This document shows positions 5,078-13,281 of a DNA stretch of 22,651 bases, piece after piece. Numbering within the stretch: position 1 is the stretch's first letter; the number at the start of each line of letters is the position of its first letter. Under the pieces are notes generated by a model. It saw only the letters and a program-made list of their open reading frames with translations, had not been told where the DNA came from and did not search any database. This DNA comes from a virus: IMG/VR virus record IMGVR_UViG_3300030109_005111, positions 26,660 to 49,310 of that record; one strand, 5' to 3'. The translations under genes and the position numbers were made by a program.

Positions 5078-8000
5078 ATGGCTGAAGATAAAAGAACTTT
5101 TCTTCAAGGTAAAATGAATCAAGATCTTGATGATCGCGTTTTACCTAATGGAGAGTATCGCAATGCTCAAAACATACAAATAACTACTTCAGAAGTTTCA
5201 GATATAGGATCTATACAGAACTTATTAGGTAATTCTAAAGTTGGTGATACTGTTTCTGGTTTTGCGAACCTTGATACTATAGGCGTTTTTTTTGATGAAA
5301 AAAACAGTAGAATTTATTATTTCATTACAAATTATACTTGTCCTGATGTCAATAAAGAAGGTTTAGTTGGTGATATAGACGGACCTACAATGGCAGAACA
5401 AGCAGATAATGGTGATTTGTTTTGTGGTATATATATGTATGCAAAAGATACTACGCAGCCTCAACTATTAGTTTCTGGTTTATTTTTAAATTTTAGTAAA
5501 ACACACACTATAACAGGTGTAAATTTAATAGAAGATTTATTGTTTTTTACAGATGGTTTAAATCAACCTAGAAAAATAAATGTAGAAAAAGCAATACAAG
5601 ACGATGCTACAAGTAATAATCCGTATTATTATAACGAAGATAAAATAAGTGTTGCTAAATTTGCTCCCTTTATGCCTGCTTTATTGTTAGATTATGATCA
5701 AACAACTTTAAACAATAATGTACCTACAACTGAACCAGTTTCTTCACTACAAACAAATACTAGTTTTCCAGATAACTTAATAGATGAAAAATTTGTTAGA
5801 TTTTCATATAGATATAGATTTGTAGATGGCGAATATTCTACTATAGCTCCATTTACTCAAGTTTGTTTTATACCAAAAACTCACAGTTTTAATGGTAATC
5901 ATCTACAAAAAATACTAAAAAGAGGTCAAGCTTATTTTCAAGATGATAATGGGGCTTCTGATGGTATGGTAAACTCAGTTAATTCTGTTAATTTAAACAT
6001 AATATTACCTAGCTCTAAGTTAAAAACTAATTTAGACATAAATGGAATAGAAATACTTTATAAAGAGTCTAATAACAACGTTGTAAAAGCTGTTGAGCTT
6101 ATAGAAATTAAAAACGAAAACGCTTCAGATTTAGTTACACCTAGCAATAGTGATAATTTTATTCAAAACGAAGGTGTATTTCAATATAAATATAAATCAA
6201 CTCTTCCTTATAAAACACTACCAGCTGATCAATTACCTAGAGTATATGACAATATTCCGCTTTCTGCTAAAGCGCAAGAAATAGTAGGTAATAGAGTTAT
6301 ATATGGTAATTTTATACAAGACAGACAGTTACCTATAGAAAAAGGTGTTATAGGATTAAACTTTAATACATCTGTTGATGCTAAATATGATATAACTAAT
6401 CCTTTAGGTAATGCTGATTTTAATAATTATTATTTACATAAAGAATATCCTTATCACTCTGTAAAACAAAAAAGAACTTACGAGGTAGGTGTGGTATTAT
6501 CTGATAAATTCGGAAGACAATCACCTGTTTTAACTTCAACTATTGGTGATGGTTCTATAACAGTAGATGCAAAGTCTAACACATTTAATAGTAGTACATG
6601 GTCTGAAAATGATCTCTTACCAATACAGGACACTTCACCTGGTAACGAAAACTACTGCGGAGATGCTTTAACTATAACTTTTAATAAAGAAATACCTAAC
6701 GCTTACGCTAAAGGCACTTTAATTAATGTTAATAATGAGCTTATTTCTACTAATTATAGTTTTGATCTTTACGAAACAAATTTTACTACAAATCCTATAT
6801 TAAGTGATGGTTCACCAAGTAGCACAGGAGGTATTCAACTAGGTAGTTTATATTTTTATTCATCAACTGAAATTCCAATTGTTAATATTACTGATTTTTT
6901 ATATACAGACACTACTTTACAAACAATTTTAACTGGCTACAGCGAAGTATATATGCGTCAACCTTTAGCTGTAGTTAATAATCAAGCTACAATACATAAA
7001 ATTGATTTAAATCCTTCAACAGGAGCTGTATTAAATGTATCTACTGTTTCTCAAAGTATATTTCAAGGAAACTTAATGGTTGTTACAGTATCACAACTTG
7101 TTTCTAGTGGTGGTGATGTTAATTCTGTTATTTTAAATCAAGTAACAGTAACATCTAGTGTTATTAACGATACTAATGGTAATTTTTTAATAGGACAAAT
7201 CACAATTGAAGATGCTAGTCTTATAAACGAATTTACTGTTGGAGATTATTTAAAAGGTCAAAACGTAGATTTTGTAGAAATAACTAATATATTTATTGAA
7301 AATGGTAATTTAATAATACAATGTGATGGTGAGCCTAGCTTAAGCTATAATACTGTTTCAGGAAGTGTACCTTTAGGTTATTATTTTTATAAATACAAAA
7401 TAATTCCACATGGCTGGTATTCTTATAGAGTTGTTGTTAAACAAACAGAGCAAGATTACAACAATGTGTATGCTCCTAATGTTTATGATTTTGATAACGA
7501 TAGAGACGATCCAAAAACTTATATACCTATACTAGCTGATAATATAAATAAAGTAACTAGAGATATAGAGTTTACTAACACACAAGAAACTGGATTAAGT
7601 ACTAGTAAAGACAAGTTATTTCCAAAAGTTGTACCAAGCGCTACAAATGCAGGATTATCTGTACAAAGTGATAATGATATATTAGATGTTATAAATATAG
7701 GTACATCAAAAGAGCAAGGTATTAAAAATGAAAACGATGATGTTTTTGCTTTTATATCTGAGACTAGTAAAAATCCTTTAATGGCACAGATACCATTTGG
7801 AGGTTCTACTGGTAATAACATAGGATCAAATACAGAGCTTGGACTACAGGGAACACTAAGAACAATAACAGTTGCAACCTCTGGAACTACTGCTACTGAC
7901 TTTAAACAAGCAAATAAAGTTTTATCTATATCAGGAGGTGACGCTAGTGAGTTTGCTATTGGTGAATATTTAAAAGGATCTAATAAAGATTTAGTAAAAA

Positions 8001-10204
8001 TTATTAAAGTATCAGGTTCAAACCCAATTTTAGTAGAGTGTGACGGTAGTTTATCAAATGAATATAAAGATTTAACAAATAGTGAAAGCTTTAGAGTTTA
8101 TAGTTATAAATATGGAGTACAAGATAATTTAGCTGTTTTTGAAACAAAACCTTTTGATACTGCTTTAGATATATATTATGAAACTTCTACTGCTGGCTTA
8201 GTTCATGAGCTTAATGAGGCTTTAAATGTACCTGCTATTATTAGTAAAATTGAAGTAGATGCTAATTTATCAGAAGATATTTTATATTGGGATCAAGGTA
8301 ATTTCCAAGGCATATATGCTGGTATTGTTAATTTTTTAGATGTATTAGATAATAATATAACAAGTGATGATATAATTGAAGTTTCAATAAACTCTATAAG
8401 AGGATTTGTAGAAACAACAAGCCCAATAGCTGATTTGGCTACTCAAGCACTTATTCCTCAAGAGTCTATAATAACTGATGAAGCTTCGATGCCTTTTGAA
8501 ATATTGTTTGTAGATAACGAGTGGAAAATAAAACCAAAAAATAACTTTTATCATAGTGTTATTGATGGACAACAATTTAACGCTTATGAATTTAACGTAG
8601 ACATAGTTCACCAGCAAACATCTACAGATGTAGTTAATTTAAATAGTCAAACTTTTAATTTAAGACTTGAAAATGTAGCACCTATAGTTGAACCTATAGT
8701 TAACATAGATGGTTCTGTGAGAAGTTCTCTAGAAACTGAAGATATTATTGTTGGTAAAATACCAGCAGTAAACGGTAGTGCTGATGTAGAAAACAACAAA
8801 AGTGGTTTAATTTTTGTTTCTAAAAATATAAATCCTTCAATTACTTCTTCTACTACTAATATTAGCGATGACAACACAACTATAACAGTAGATACTAGCA
8901 CTGTTTTACACGATTCTAGTGGAGATCCAATAAAAGAATTAGCTATAAATTCTAATACTGGTGAAATATCAATAAGACCACAGTTCTTTTATGGTGTTGT
9001 AAATAAAACTTTTGATGTTTTTGTTTATGACTCAGATGTTAATTTTTTAAACTCAGAAGAATATTTAACAGATGAAACTGGTATTTTCTTTGGCAAAAGA
9101 ACTTTAACAACTGTAAACGTACAAGTTACAGCTGATTTAATAGTTATAGAAGGTGCTGAAGTTGATTCTGACGCAAATCACCCTTATTATGTTGTAACTA
9201 ACACAGATCAAATAAACGGACAAGATATTTTTAATCAAGACGCGTTTTTTGATGTTGATAATGATTTATATAATTGTTATTGGACAGAAAACCCTTCAAG
9301 TCTTGAAGCTTTTAATAACGACGGTGTGTCTCAAGAAAGTATGCCTAGCGCTATTAGACATAGTCAGTCTGGTGAGTTCTTTTTGTGTAGTTTTCTTAAT
9401 GGAGAAGGTGCTTCAGGTGATCCTGCTGAGTTATGGTCTATTAAAATAGACGAAAGCGGAGAGCCTAGAGTTAGAAAATATAAGAAACAAAGCACTAGAA
9501 AAGAAAGTTCTACTAGTGATTTTCTTTATTATGACCATATTTTACCTACATCATATAGAGGCGAGTTTGGTGAGTTATTGGCAGCTGGTGTTATTCCTGG
9601 TAGTGATAATCCAATAACTGTAACTATGGGAGGTGTTATTATTATACAAGAAGTAGGTAATAGCAGTGCGTCTTACAGTGTTCAAGAAAATATAGATTTA
9701 CTAGGTTTTCAAGGAACAGGTATAAACCATGATAATGGTGTTAATGCTACTGGACAATATAATCTTAGTGCTGGAGGAGGATTTACTAATTTTGGCGAAC
9801 CTAATGGCACAGAGCACGATATAAGAGATAAATTAGCACAAGGTATAACACAATGGGATTTTGAAGTTGCAAGTGAAGGTCCTTTTAGCGCAACAAACTC
9901 TGGTACTTTTGGTGACGGAGGTTTTGATTTTGATTTTAATCCTATAACAGGTGAAACTCAAGGTAGTTATAAGTATTATACTCCAGAAAATATTTTATCA
10001 GGATCTTTTGCACACCCAAAACATAGAGGTGTAGAAGATACTTTTATGTTTCAAACTAATAACGACATAGAAATACTAGGCTACACGTATAAAGTTGTTT
10101 ATGAGATGCAAAGATCAAATAGCGTTGGAATTACTGGATATTATGCTAGTGATGATCAATTTTGGGTACCTCATGTTTTTTTAGCAAGAAAAGGAAATGA
10201 TTAA
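5078..10204 (+). CDS. Giant tail stabilisation/nozzle protein (gp12/gp10-like)
   Basis: A 1708-residue protein. It opens with FLQGKMNQDLDDRVLPNGEY and, shortly after, SDIGSIQNLLGN (within the first 55 residues), the hallmark I recall from tail stabilisation or nozzle proteins of marine and crAss-like podoviruses, analogous to T7 gp12 and P22 gp10, which form a beta-propeller at the tail tip. Other family-like blocks are HGWYSYRVVVKQTEQDY (from residue 778) and FETKPFDTALDIYYETST (from residue 1021). Two related beta modules precede these blocks (about residues 687-774 and 927-1013). From about residue 1199 (NVAPIVEPIV) the protein is Thr/Asn/Ser-rich and beta-rich, resembling Ig- or cadherin-like repeats, and the last 250 residues are Gly-rich. 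This long extension could reach out as a host-contact element. No enzymatic motif is seen. The start lies directly after the previous stop. Confidence 0.65.
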   Translation: MAEDKRTFLQGKMNQDLDDRVLPNGEYRNAQNIQITTSEVSDIGSIQNLLGNSKVGDTVSGFANLDTIGVFFDEKNSRIYYFITNYTCPDVNKEGLVGDIDGPTMAEQADNGDLFCGIYMYAKDTTQPQLLVSGLFLNFSKTHTITGVNLIEDLLFFTDGLNQPRKINVEKAIQDDATSNNPYYYNEDKISVAKFAPFMPALLLDYDQTTLNNNVPTTEPVSSLQTNTSFPDNLIDEKFVRFSYRYRFVDGEYSTIAPFTQVCFIPKTHSFNGNHLQKILKRGQAYFQDDNGASDGMVNSVNSVNLNIILPSSKLKTNLDINGIEILYKESNNNVVKAVELIEIKNENASDLVTPSNSDNFIQNEGVFQYKYKSTLPYKTLPADQLPRVYDNIPLSAKAQEIVGNRVIYGNFIQDRQLPIEKGVIGLNFNTSVDAKYDITNPLGNADFNNYYLHKEYPYHSVKQKRTYEVGVVLSDKFGRQSPVLTSTIGDGSITVDAKSNTFNSSTWSENDLLPIQDTSPGNENYCGDALTITFNKEIPNAYAKGTLINVNNELISTNYSFDLYETNFTTNPILSDGSPSSTGGIQLGSLYFYSSTEIPIVNITDFLYTDTTLQTILTGYSEVYMRQPLAVVNNQATIHKIDLNPSTGAVLNVSTVSQSIFQGNLMVVTVSQLVSSGGDVNSVILNQVTVTSSVINDTNGNFLIGQITIEDASLINEFTVGDYLKGQNVDFVEITNIFIENGNLIIQCDGEPSLSYNTVSGSVPLGYYFYKYKIIPHGWYSYRVVVKQTEQDYNNVYAPNVYDFDNDRDDPKTYIPILADNINKVTRDIEFTNTQETGLSTSKDKLFPKVVPSATNAGLSVQSDNDILDVINIGTSKEQGIKNENDDVFAFISETSKNPLMAQIPFGGSTGNNIGSNTELGLQGTLRTITVATSGTTATDFKQANKVLSISGGDASEFAIGEYLKGSNKDLVKIIKVSGSNPILVECDGSLSNEYKDLTNSESFRVYSYKYGVQDNLAVFETKPFDTALDIYYETSTAGLVHELNEALNVPAIISKIEVDANLSEDILYWDQGNFQGIYAGIVNFLDVLDNNITSDDIIEVSINSIRGFVETTSPIADLATQALIPQESIITDEASMPFEILFVDNEWKIKPKNNFYHSVIDGQQFNAYEFNVDIVHQQTSTDVVNLNSQTFNLRLENVAPIVEPIVNIDGSVRSSLETEDIIVGKIPAVNGSADVENNKSGLIFVSKNINPSITSSTTNISDDNTTITVDTSTVLHDSSGDPIKELAINSNTGEISIRPQFFYGVVNKTFDVFVYDSDVNFLNSEEYLTDETGIFFGKRTLTTVNVQVTADLIVIEGAEVDSDANHPYYVVTNTDQINGQDIFNQDAFFDVDNDLYNCYWTENPSSLEAFNNDGVSQESMPSAIRHSQSGEFFLCSFLNGEGASGDPAELWSIKIDESGEPRVRKYKKQSTRKESSTSDFLYYDHILPTSYRGEFGELLAAGVIPGSDNPITVTMGGVIIIQEVGNSSASYSVQENIDLLGFQGTGINHDNGVNATGQYNLSAGGGFTNFGEPNGTEHDIRDKLAQGITQWDFEVASEGPFSATNSGTFGDGGFDFDFNPITGETQGSYKYYTPENILSGSFAHPKHRGVEDTFMFQTNNDIEILGYTYKVVYEMQRSNSVGITGYYASDDQFWVPHVFLARKGND
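7136..7402 (+). repeat. Intragenic beta module, copy 1
   Basis: Residues 687-774 of the 1708-residue tail protein. The copy contains FTVGDYLKGQNVDFVEI and, after a strand, a CDG motif followed by YKYKI. It aligns with copy 2, about 240 residues further on; 10 of the 17 residues quoted are identical between the copies. The DNA of the two copies has diverged, so this is an old duplication. Confidence 0.7.
7856..8116 (+). repeat. Intragenic beta module, copy 2
   Basis: Residues 927-1013 of the same tail protein. The copy contains FAIGEYLKGSNKDLVKI, then a strand, a CDG motif and YSYKYG, in the same order and spacing as copy 1. It lies directly before the FETKPFDTALDIYYETST block, while copy 1 lies directly before the HGWYSYRVVVKQ block. 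The modules therefore look like decorations inserted at equivalent places in two adjoining structural units. Confidence 0.7.
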
Positions 10205-10226
10205 TAAAATAAGTAATATATAATAA

Positions 10227-12044
10227 ATGGCTGTAACATTAAGAGTAAAGTATTTTAACACCATTATATTGAGGCAAGAACCTTATTTAGCTACTAGCAT
10301 AACTACGGCTTGCTCTACTTCAGCTTCAGCACCTGCAGAATCTAATACTATAAACGTTACTAGTTCTTCTTTAAGTGCTTTAAGCTCTAGTGTTTCCTAT
10401 GCTATAAGCGGACCGGGTGTTAAAGACGGCACAACAGGTCAGTTAAATGGAGGTAAAACAATATTAACTTTTGATAATAGTGTTGAGTGTAAAATAGAAA
10501 AAGGAGTTACTTTAACGTTTTCTTCTACAACACCATACGTTAATAATACTGTTTCAAAAAACGAGTGGCACGTAGAAGAGTCTAGAATAAAAGGTGGTTT
10601 TAATGAAAGTGCTATAGATTATGGACCTAAAGCATATGCCGTAGATAAAAAATATAACAGAAAGCATAGAGAAAATTCTATGATTTATTCTGGTATATTT
10701 AACTCAAGAACAGGTGTAAATAATACTAATCAATTTTCAATAGCAGAAAATATAACAAAATCTGTTGATTTAGCATATGGATCAATACAAAAACTATACG
10801 CTGAAGATACAAACTTGCTTATATTTCAAGAAAACAAAGTTAATGGTGCTTTAATTGATAAAGACGCTATATTTACGGCTGAAGGTGGAGGCTTATCAAC
10901 TACAGCTAAAGTTGTTATAGGACAAATAACTCCATATTTAGGTGAATTTGGTATAGGTAAAAATCCAGAAAGCTTTGCTGTGTTTGGATTTAGAAAATAT
11001 TTTGTAGATAGAGACAGAGGATCTGTTTTAAGGCTATCTAGAGACGGTTTAACAGAAATATCATCATATGGTATGAGAAGCTTTTTTAGAAAGCATCTAG
11101 ACAAGTCTATAAGCATAAGAGGTTTTTATGATATTCACGCTAGAAATTACGTTTTAAACTTGAAATTAGATAATTTAGTACAACAAAATAAGCAAACTTT
11201 TTTAACTGAAATACAAGCTACGGTTTTAAATTCTGTTAAAGGTGAAAACAAAGTTGTTTTATCTTCAAGCTCTAATAATATTCAACCTGGTTATTTTATA
11301 CAAAGCGATACTATTAAAAAGTTTTCTAATAGAGTTAGTAGTGTTGTTAATAATACTATTACTTTAACTAAAAATATTAATTTAAATGCTGGTGATGTAG
11401 TTAGTTTTATACCTACAAATCAATTTGGTATTGAAGCTTTAGAGCCATTAATAAAATATAAAACTTTAGTTTTTAGTGATAAAGTAAATGGTTGGAGCTC
11501 GTTTTTAACATATAATCCAAGTTTTGGTGGTAGTTTAAACAACTCTTTATATACTTTTGATGGTGGTGATTTATATAAACATTACGATGAAAATCAAGAT
11601 AAAAATACTTTTTATGGAGTTTTTCAACCAAGTACTATAACAGTTGTTAGTAATCAAAATCCTTCACTTGTAAAACACTATAAAACTGTTAATTACGAAG
11701 GAACAAATAACTGGAAAGTTATAAGTTTAAATTCACCTGCTGAAGATAATGAAAACTACAACGCGTATCCTATACCTGGTAATATAGCTGGTAGATATTA
11801 TCAAGAAGGTGTAGTTAAGTTTGCTGGATTTACACCTCTTGAGAAAAAATACTATGCAAACGTAATAATAAAAGATACATCTACAATAACTGGTATAAGT
11901 AGTTTAACAACTACTGGTGTAAAAGGGTTTTTTACAGAAGCAACTTTTGAGCATGAACCTTTAAACAACGATAAAACATTAAACAAAAAGAAAAAAGCTG
12001 AATTGTTTTCAATAGGCTTTAACTACGAACAATCACTATATTAA
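10227..12044 (+). CDS. Tail structural protein of the stabilisation/nozzle group
   Basis: A 605-residue protein. A short conserved-looking N-terminus (MAVTLRVKYFNTIILR) is followed by a Ser/Thr-rich beta insertion (residues about 25-112). The recognisable core then starts at EWHVEESRIKGGFNES and continues through MIYSGIFNSRTGVNNTNQFS, SIQKLYAEDTNLLIFQENKV, AIFTAEGGG, GKNPESFAVFGFRKYFVDRD and LRLSRDGLTEISSYGM. These blocks are familiar from proteins encoded next to the large nozzle protein in marine phages, and the repeated four-stranded units suggest a beta-propeller. Residues about 338-410 hold another small beta insertion (NAGDVVSFIPTNQFG). It lies 22 bases after the giant tail gene and 5 bases before the cupin-like gene. 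A role in the tail tube or tip is likely; the assignment rests on context and remembered family patterns. Confidence 0.62.
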   Translation: MAVTLRVKYFNTIILRQEPYLATSITTACSTSASAPAESNTINVTSSSLSALSSSVSYAISGPGVKDGTTGQLNGGKTILTFDNSVECKIEKGVTLTFSSTTPYVNNTVSKNEWHVEESRIKGGFNESAIDYGPKAYAVDKKYNRKHRENSMIYSGIFNSRTGVNNTNQFSIAENITKSVDLAYGSIQKLYAEDTNLLIFQENKVNGALIDKDAIFTAEGGGLSTTAKVVIGQITPYLGEFGIGKNPESFAVFGFRKYFVDRDRGSVLRLSRDGLTEISSYGMRSFFRKHLDKSISIRGFYDIHARNYVLNLKLDNLVQQNKQTFLTEIQATVLNSVKGENKVVLSSSSNNIQPGYFIQSDTIKKFSNRVSSVVNNTITLTKNINLNAGDVVSFIPTNQFGIEALEPLIKYKTLVFSDKVNGWSSFLTYNPSFGGSLNNSLYTFDGGDLYKHYDENQDKNTFYGVFQPSTITVVSNQNPSLVKHYKTVNYEGTNNWKVISLNSPAEDNENYNAYPIPGNIAGRYYQEGVVKFAGFTPLEKKYYANVIIKDTSTITGISSLTTTGVKGFFTEATFEHEPLNNDKTLNKKKKAELFSIGFNYEQSLY

Positions 12045-12049
12045 ATTTA

Positions 12050-12514
12050 ATGGAAAACAAGTTAAGTAATTATAAGCAAAAACTTGAAAACTTACAAAAC
12101 TTTTTAATAAAAAATAACGACGTAGAGGGTATATACGGAGATGGTAAAAAATTAGTTAATAACGATGTTTTTAAAATATCACATGATTTTTCTGATCAAC
12201 TATATATGAGAAAAATGATTATGCCTGCTGGATCGTTTGTTGTAAGCGCAATACATCATACAGACCATTTTTGGTTTTTAATGACTGGTAGAATACTAGT
12301 TACAACTGATGATGAAGAAATAGAACACATAGCACCATGCTATGAAAAATCAATAAAAGGAGCTAAAAGGTTAATTAAATGTTTAGAAGACTGTGTGTTT
12401 ATAAATGTTCATAAAAACCCTACAAATACAGAAAATATAGAAGAAGTGGAAGAGTTATTATACTCTTTTACTATAGAAGAATATAATAAAAAAGAAAAAC
12501 TATGTCAGGAATAG
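12050..12514 (+). CDS. Cupin-like protein in the virion operon
   Basis: A 154-residue protein with an N-terminal helix, a compact beta-barrel region and an acidic C-terminal helix. The segment GSFVVSAIHHTDHFWFLMTG (residues 61-80) resembles cupin motif 1, and VHKN (residues 120-123) resembles motif 2. H69, H70, H73 and H121 are candidate metal ligands. In the classical motif a Glu lies seven residues before the conserved Gly; here that place is taken by H73, so metal binding, if any, is non-standard. The reaction and substrate cannot be told from sequence. The gene lies between the tail genes and the ejection-protein cassette, and its last 13 bases overlap the next gene in another frame, implying translational coupling. 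It could be an assembly factor, a small virion enzyme or a receptor-binding accessory. It ends with consecutive TAG and TAA stops. Confidence 0.72.
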   Translation: MENKLSNYKQKLENLQNFLIKNNDVEGIYGDGKKLVNNDVFKISHDFSDQLYMRKMIMPAGSFVVSAIHHTDHFWFLMTGRILVTTDDEEIEHIAPCYEKSIKGAKRLIKCLEDCVFINVHKNPTNTENIEEVEELLYSFTIEEYNKKEKLCQE

Positions 12515-13281
12515 TAACAGCTGGAATAATAATGGGCGGAGCTAACGTATTAAGTGGTGGTATATCTGCTATAATGGGTGGCTCTGCTAGACGTAAAGCT
12601 AGAAGACGCCAAAGAAGGCTTGAAGCACAAATAAGACGACTTGAAGGACAAAGACAAGATATTATAAATCCTTTTGAAGGAGCAGAACAAACGCTTACAA
12701 ATCCTTTTGCTAATTTAACAGTTGCTACTCAAGCCGCTGATTTTCAAGCACAACAAACAGATTTATCTTTAGCTAGTACGCTAGATACACTTAGAGCTAC
12801 AGGTTCTGGCGCGGGTGGTGCTACTGCTCTTGCTCAAGCTGCTTTGCAAGCTAAACAAGGTGTTGCTGCTAGTATAGCTCAACAAGAAGTGCAAAACGAA
12901 AGATTAAGAGCACAAGGACAACAACAACTAGAAAGAGCTTTATTTGATGCTGAAGCTAAAGGTAAACAATTTGTTTTTGGCGCACAAGAAACAAGAGAAA
13001 TGCAAAGGCTAAATAGATTATCTTCAATGGCTGGAGCTGCTTCACAACAGGCCGCGGCGGCTCAAAGCGCTGAATTAGCTGGTGTTGGACAAGCTGTAGG
13101 TGGTATTGGTAGTATTGCAGCTATGGGCGCGACGGGAGCTTTTGGTTCAGGTGCAAGCACGGCTACATCACCTGGTCTTACAGGAACTGTACAAGGAACT
13201 GGTAATATAGGAAGCTCATATAATTTTGCGGGATCTATAGATCAAAATTTAATTCCTGGTATACTTAATCCTGGAAATTAA
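12502..13281 (+). CDS. Internal virion (DNA ejection) protein, T7 gp14-like in character
   Basis: A 259-residue protein rich in Ala, Gly and Gln. Residues 3-27 are a Gly-rich hydrophobic segment able to enter a membrane, followed by a very basic stretch (ARRKARRRQRRLEAQIRRLE). A region with NPFANLTVATQAADFQAQQT (about residues 67-86) and ATALAQAALQAKQGVAASI leads into a long Gln-rich coiled coil, and the C-terminus is Gly/Ala/Ser-rich. This layout matches small internal virion proteins such as T7 gp14, which leave the head first and insert in the outer membrane, and I recall the same pattern in marine phages. It overlaps the cupin-like gene by 13 bases and is followed by two further presumed ejection proteins, giving a small-middle-giant order. 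Assignment is by architecture and context. Confidence 0.68.
   Translation: MSGIVTAGIIMGGANVLSGGISAIMGGSARRKARRRQRRLEAQIRRLEGQRQDIINPFEGAEQTLTNPFANLTVATQAADFQAQQTDLSLASTLDTLRATGSGAGGATALAQAALQAKQGVAASIAQQEVQNERLRAQGQQQLERALFDAEAKGKQFVFGAQETREMQRLNRLSSMAGAASQQAAAAQSAELAGVGQAVGGIGSIAAMGATGAFGSGASTATSPGLTGTVQGTGNIGSSYNFAGSIDQNLIPGILNPGN

Follow-up and report, generated by a model that had tools for sequence, protein, structure and literature searches.

The window, the stretch of DNA analysed here, is the 22,651-base end of a 49,310-base record of a marine short-tailed phage and carries a small cupin-fold gene whose end overlaps the start of an ejection gene (Table 1). By analogy with phages T7 and P22, we propose that the cupin may be an assembly factor that would help to bring the first ejection protein into the virion, standing in for T7 gp13 and P22 gp14 with a different fold; we give this reading a probability of about 0.48, close to an even chance. 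The cupin, in which only half of the canonical metal site survives, would be made together with the first ejection (internal virion) protein from overlapping genes, would bind it, and would help it into the capsid or the internal core during morphogenesis, taking over the place of T7 gp13 and P22 gp14. The protein family is already known; as far as our searches go, its reading as a cupin-fold counterpart of these two proteins is new, and no description of it as such was found among the matches listed in open-licence PMC papers.

Table 1. Features of the window and of related loci discussed in the text.
Feature	Position	Strand	Basis
Cupin-fold gene, 154 aa; proposed ejection-protein assembly factor	12050..12514	+	ORF, relatives, PHROG_12032, AlphaFold2, Foldseek, VIA
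Overlap of cupin gene end and ejection gene start, 13 bases	12502..12514	+	ORFs; relatives
Upstream gene, tail muzzle-like protein, 605 aa	10227..12044	+	Pfam crAss_MUZ_C E 3.6e-8; PHROG_14478 E 1e-41
gp14/gp7-like ejection protein gene, 259 aa	12502..13281	+	Profile match, PHROG matches of family
Second internal-virion-protein position (T7 gp15 place), 553 aa	13308..14969	+	Gene order only; weak PHROG_25150 E 0.004
Large last internal-virion-protein position (T7 gp16 place), 2439 aa	14987..22306	+	Gene order only
Cupin motif 1, codons 67-73 A-I-H-H-T-D-H: A67 for first His, H73 for Glu	12248..12268	+	Sequence
Codon 107 (Arg) at cupin motif-2 His place	12368..12370	+	Alignment
Codon 121 (His), last barrel strand	12410..12412	+	Alignment
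Cupin-SET fusions in podovirus virion operons	L073 (P26218):8896-9771; L076:8893-9723; L198-L207

The cupin gene and its relatives

The plus-strand open reading frame at 12050-12514 starts with ATG and encodes 154 residues, while its antisense frame contains many stops. Relatives were found at 64 IMG/VR loci with 55-89% identity, and a comparison with the nearest of them (L002, last five codons excluded) gave 0.058 nonsynonymous versus 0.475 synonymous differences per site. On these grounds it is a real gene, under purifying selection with respect to its nearest relative. The protein belongs to PHROG_12032 (E 1e-22, residues 42-148 aligned to positions 40-144 of 160 of the profile) and also matches PHROG_24280 (E 2e-16). 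No sequence homology to PHROG_308 (T7 gp13) or PHROG_651 (P22 gp14) was found, with no match to either at E<=10.

A recent acquisition of the gene from a cellular genome was considered and rejected: 72 candidate stretches in genome contigs contained no relative, in a search that reaches close relatives only, and there was no megablast match in E. coli genomes. A local promoter near the gene was likewise rejected, with 19 consensus sites against 20.6 expected. Terminator-like sites numbered 7 against 2.4 expected, none of them on the plus strand between 9800 and 14307. The capsid protein of the window matches 85 phage records (68 Flavobacterium, 15 Cellulophaga, 1 Maribacter and 1 unclassified); since all but one of these are named as phages of the three genera, the host is likely a member of the Bacteroidota.

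Elsewhere in the record, the phage of the window carries a 513-aa chaperonin-like gene (L082:11824-13365, G000:C1), whose product is presumably a GroEL-like chaperonin; annotated GroEL genes are present in its relatives elemo and MW202828. Two large AIG/NAL-type repeat-rich proteins (L083:1465-5091 and L082:7480-9693) are possible fibres, and the end of the former presumably resembles an endosialidase-type chaperone domain.

The fold and the metal site

The sequence-only reading had called the protein cupin-like, and structure prediction agrees. AlphaFold2, supplied with 74 aligned sequences, gave a model with a pLDDT of 94.1 and a pTM of 0.86, consisting of nine beta strands, one N-terminal helix and two C-terminal helices. 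The top Foldseek rows against the PDB are cupins, with E values from 2.6e-7, and include the cupin domains of CENP-C, which are dimerisation modules. VIA-align placed HP0902 first (Z 11.8, rmsd 1.7 over 85 residues), with KdgF, DddK and sugar isomerases among the further structural matches. Of the viral structures, a protein of Virus NIOZ-UU157 is the top match (E 1e-14), the SnaP-R1 protein the fifth and a 'SET domain containing protein' the seventh. Sequence comparison alone gave weaker signals: Pfam Cupin_2 scored E=0.12 with the window protein, which misses the cut-off, and was detected at E<=0.01 in 9 of 74 family members; a PDB search with the single protein reached a best E of 0.1, and one with the profile A1 gave weak cupin matches with a best E of 0.019. 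The modelling thus confirms the predicted single RmlC-like cupin beta-barrel.

The window protein contains histidines at positions 45, 69, 70, 73, 93 and 121, four of which (H69, H70, H73 and H121) had been put forward as a metal centre, with H73 in place of the usual glutamate. The cupin motif G(X)5HXH(X)3-4E(X)6G maps to G61-A67-H69-H73-G80, and the canonical ligand positions, which by motif spacing are 67, 69, 73 and 107, are occupied by A, H, H and R. By the same spacing H73 indeed falls on the Glu position. To assess conservation, we used an alignment of 74 of the 85 non-redundant family sequences, with 11 long or short ones left out. H69 is kept in all 74 and H73 in 68 members; H70 occurs in 20 of 74, i.e. 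in the window clade only, and H121 in 62 of 74 overall and in 12 of the 20 window-clade representatives, the other eight having Ile. Among 46 distinct close sequences, position 121 is His in 22 and Ile in 24. A four-histidine metal site was therefore rejected.

The remaining ligand positions are more variable, with K, A or H at position 67 (47, 21 and 6 members) and R, K, H or S at position 107 (65, 5, 3 and 1 members). The complete canonical ligand set is found in just three of the 74 (L164, L181 and L187), and the window protein, with A67 and R107, does not have the ligand set of a 3-His/Glu metal-binding cupin. Since H69 and H73 are conserved but A67 and R107 occupy the other two positions, the cupin pocket appears to be partly retained and the classical metal site, judged from the alignment, to be absent. 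The window clade differs from most other cupins of PHROG_12032 and PHROG_24280, which have lysine at both position 67 and position 70, in its A67 and H70; unlike in those cupins, position 121 is often Ile.

Gene overlap and neighbouring virion genes

The open reading frame that follows the cupin gene begins with the ATG at 12502, resulting in the 13-base overlap described in the sequence-only reading, and this arrangement proved to be conserved. An ATG at -13 with an open downstream frame is present in 61 of the 63 window-clade loci that have a complete cupin gene (L039, the remaining one of the 64, is truncated). In one exception, L031, the downstream start lies at -16; in the other, L052, the ATG at -13 is present and its frame extends over only 11 codons. 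From about 5453 of L052 the ejection frame ends early, either by a frameshift in the contig or because the gene is broken. Counted by size and start position alone, an open reading frame of at least 90 aa starts within -40 to +60 in 70 of 71 SnaP-R1-like loci (76 minus the five cut-off loci L089, L091, L156, L158 and L159), 39 of them at -4, and in 32 of 33 VPMS1-like loci. The overlap is thus 13 bases in the window clade as opposed to mostly 4 in the SnaP-R1-like group. As the genes overlap, translational coupling of the cupin and ejection genes is plausible.

The claimed position between tail and ejection genes is likewise supported, by the crAss_MUZ_C match upstream and by the gp14-like family downstream. 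In the region 5078-12044, two genes of 1708 and 605 aa match separate parts of PHROG 14478 (1474 positions), as though a single tail gene had been divided here. Downstream, a profile (A6) built from the window protein and 21 of 40 distinct downstream proteins matched, with an hhalign probability of 96.5% and E 9.2e-10, the gp14-like proteins of one spring phage and of phages of Cellulophaga, Flavobacterium and Maribacter, two of which, phi18:3 gp120 and phi40:1 gp099, are annotated as structural from MS/MS. Three of the 22 family members match PHROG_598 'DNA ejection', one matches phrog_13764 and one phrog_805 'internal virion protein'. The profile and the PHROG_598 matches agree with the earlier assignment of the downstream gene to the gp14-like ejection type. 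The 12502-13281 protein of the window alone has no PHROG or phage-record match of significance, and the profile of its family failed to pick up the single T7 gp14 sequence. For the 2439-aa protein at the T7 gp16 place, nothing in Pfam scored E<=0.01.

The place of the gene in other phages

Gene place is conserved in related phages. In 13 of the 14 isolate or named carrier phages inspected, the cupin gene stands directly before a gene of 141-246 aa, which in five of the 13 (VPMS1, 234P9, MW202867, VAC_51 and VvAW1) is named as a DNA injection, ejection, transfer or internal virion protein and in the other eight has no name or is called 'structural'. Alteromonas phage H4/4 departs from this arrangement, with its cupin (L071:8866-9339) upstream of the portal, away from the ejection genes. 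The carrier backbones vary between P22-like, T7-like and VPMS1-like. In P22-like backbones (1.067.O, X14, VvAW1), the cupin gene directly precedes the gene at the gp7 place, which is the place of P22 gene 14; in T7-like backbones (Sphaerotilus phage SnaP-R1, VAC_51), it lies between tail tube B and the first internal-protein gene, which is the place of T7 gene 13. The window cupin, between a tail gene and the first ejection gene, occupies the T7 gp13 / P22 gp14 place as well, and shares family, fold and this place with the podovirus cupins of PHROG_12032 and PHROG_24280.

T7 gene 13 (Phage_T7_Gp13, PHROG_308), between nozzle gene 12 and gene 14, encodes a protein of similar size (138 aa), which we take to be GNAT-like; P22 gene 14 (DUF2824, PHROG_651, 'head morphogenesis'), between needle gene 26 and ejection gene 7, encodes 151 aa. 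Unlike in their placement, both differ from the window cupin in belonging to separate protein families, that of P22 gp14 without a cupin match. PDB searches yielded weak spermine acetyltransferase matches for T7 gp13 (E 0.39 and 0.40) and a glyoxalase as the sole match for P22 gp14 (E 0.008), neither of which we count as evidence of a fold. The Pfam label of the T7 gp13 family is 'probable scaffold protein', and an excerpt of PMC5592923 states that T7 gp13 is needed for the incorporation of the ejection proteins into the virion. For phage SIO1, a passage in PMC6775973 notes that pc40, a GNAT, 'could correspond to gp13 from T7'. No passage on the function of P22 gp14 was found among the open-licence PMC matches listed. 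That the cupin shares its genome place with the small proteins of T7 and P22 suggests a loading role rather than that of an enzyme or a tail fibre.

A GNAT-fold family at the same place

In phages of the capsid lineage of the window, the homologous ejection gene is preceded by a different family, phrog_17252 (PHROG function unknown). Its matches, taken at an E limit of 10 and compared by organism group, not record by record, show counts identical to those given above for the capsid protein. Eight records were opened: the gene stands directly before the gp14-like gene in five (Panino, elemoF, MW202828, phi38:1 and phi40:1), is parted from it by small opposite-strand genes or a tRNA in two (phi18:3 and phi13:2), and in phi19:3 (L197:5001-5408) lies in the same interval on the strand opposite to the surrounding structural genes. 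These proteins thus resemble the window cupin in their place before the homologous ejection gene, and differ from it in fold and in not always being adjacent or co-oriented.

Five AlphaFold2 models of phrog_17252, the family whose GNAT fold was tested by modelling, had pLDDT values from 90.5 (best) to 65.5. Foldseek with the model reached a best E of 6e-7, and all named functions in the best 50 rows are acetyl- or acyltransferases of the GNAT kind; on this modelling, the predicted fold is that of a GNAT. Profile comparison with the PDB gave the weak matches yqjY (E 0.084; function unknown, a probable acetyltransferase by the Foldseek rows) and an acetyltransferase (E 0.2); profile comparison of phrog_17252 with T7 gp13 and P22 gp14 showed no similarity. 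The acetyl-CoA loop pattern [QR]xxGx[GA], looked for as a mark of a working GNAT, is absent in 11 of 11 rows of A5 and 6 of 6 of A3, and also in two Pfam-supported GNATs used for comparison, and we draw no argument from it.

In 45 records (26 of the 64 window-clade contigs and 19 isolates or named records), phrog_12032, phrog_17252, phrog_308 and phrog_651 were detected 37, 6, 1 and 1 times, respectively, and never together. In a second set of 48 records, phrog_17252 was confined to the eight selected on its account, and the 40 cupin carriers lacked it. Both sets were assembled from records known to have one of the families, so that all they can tell is that the families do not co-occur; the phrog_17252 and phrog_651 profiles also match in one and three of 14 control bacteria, respectively. 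For GNATs in general the replacement is not strict. A PF00583 GNAT match accompanies the cupin in 2 of the 45 records and in 6 of the 48, five of these over the cut-off, and SnaP-R1 has a GNAT gene upstream of the portal besides its cupin. In Acinetobacter phage MD-2021a (L067:4631-5086), a GNAT gene lies directly upstream of the cupin gene and overlaps it, so that the two folds can stand side by side.

Cupin-SET fusions

In Pseudoalteromonas phage PH1, Rhodoferax phage P26218 and nine further IMG/VR loci (L199-L207), the cupin runs on into a C-terminal SET-like domain (10 of the 15 fetched loci were read; L198 is the same genome as PH1). The N-terminal half of these PHROG_34170 proteins is of the same cupin family as the window protein, which lacks the SET domain. 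Pfam SET was detected in PH1 (E 3.3e-8) and in the three further loci scanned (2e-8 to 3e-7), while P26218 fails the cut-off with E 0.015. The exact 13-base overlap with the next open reading frame recurs in PH1 and the nine further loci (10/10), in contrast to the annotated overlap of 4 bases in P26218. The motif EE[ILF]T-x-x-Y is present in all ten fusion loci read and NHxxxPN in six of them.

Alternative explanations

It is possible, although we consider it unlikely, that the cupin belongs to the internal virion proteins and would enter the head and leave it along with the gp14-like protein, as a part of the DNA-ejection channel. The conserved pairing of the cupin and ejection genes is compatible with this, and several annotations favour it: phi40:1 gp098, a GNAT-fold protein from the corresponding place, has a structural annotation based on MS/MS, the T7 record labels the product of gene 13 as an internal virion protein, and the cupin of Shewanella phage X14 is a 'putative structural protein', on a basis that the annotation does not state. 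The first two of these, and a PMC5592923 legend in which gp13 is 'probable virion-associated', also speak against the assembly-factor reading. On the other hand, and in keeping with that reading, the virion table of phiPsa17, as given in an excerpt of PMC4517105, has gp14, gp15 and gp16 but not the gp13 homologue, and phi18:3 gp116 at the phrog_17252 place is without the MS/MS note borne by its structural neighbours; the compact barrel would also be unlike its Ala/Gln-rich neighbour. The assembly-factor reading has further observations against it. The H4/4 cupin is placed away from the ejection genes, and phrog_17252 lies on the opposite strand in phi19:3 and is not adjacent to the gp14-like gene in phi18:3 and phi13:2; the conservation of H69 and H73 would fit a retained ligand or metal pocket equally well.

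The databases label the family differently, as 'short tail fiber protein' (PHROG_12032) and 'tail fiber adhesin' (PHROG_24280), GenBank notes cite PHA00672, and the cupins of VPMS1, H4/4, 234P9 and others bear tail-fibre-type GenBank names. That the protein serves as a short tail fibre or adhesin attaching to the host surface is nevertheless very unlikely in our view, as the cupin core is conserved and not hypervariable and the place belongs to an assembly gene, not to a fibre gene. In phage phiAP1, according to a passage in PMC8703784, such a name rests on an RmlC-like domain 'present in sugar isomerases', without experimental validation; on account of this description, the name seems to come from fold resemblance. 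An experiment behind the name, or on any cupin member, was not found among the open-licence PMC matches listed. An active metal enzyme for sugars or small molecules, working on the host or its surface, would be in keeping with the near-invariance of H69 and H73 and with the structural matches to KdgF, DddK and sugar isomerases, but the retention of two of four canonical ligand positions, the loss of H121 in eight of 20 clade members and the rarity of the complete ligand set make it just as improbable. Of the roles that the sequence-only reading had considered, assembly is favoured by gene place and overlap; no support was found for host-surface modification. Slightly less improbable, though still very unlikely, is that enzymes of protein modification (GNAT, SET, a cupin-type hydroxylase) occupy the gene place and act covalently on the ejection proteins, for which the GNAT fold in relatives and the SET domains with their motifs argue, and against which the incomplete metal site of the cupin stands.

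Implications

To our knowledge, the entry of ejection proteins into podovirus heads is poorly understood, and we know of no agreed mechanism for T7 gp13 or P22 gp14. At its broadest, the proposal would be that short-tailed phages share one function at the place before the first ejection gene, which unrelated folds have come to serve (GNAT, cupin, or cupin with SET); these would be protein-modification folds that became, or still act as, handlers of the ejection proteins. In the boldest form, covalent modification would allow the ejection proteins to be packed inside the head and, at a later stage, to refold and form a channel in the host envelope. We regard this extension as speculative and of low probability. 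The results also suggest that a widespread phage family is wrongly labelled 'short tail fiber'. If a cupin and a GNAT-fold protein fill the same place before homologous ejection genes, shared binding would be likelier than shared chemistry, and binding to the ejection protein by both folds is a hypothesis to test.
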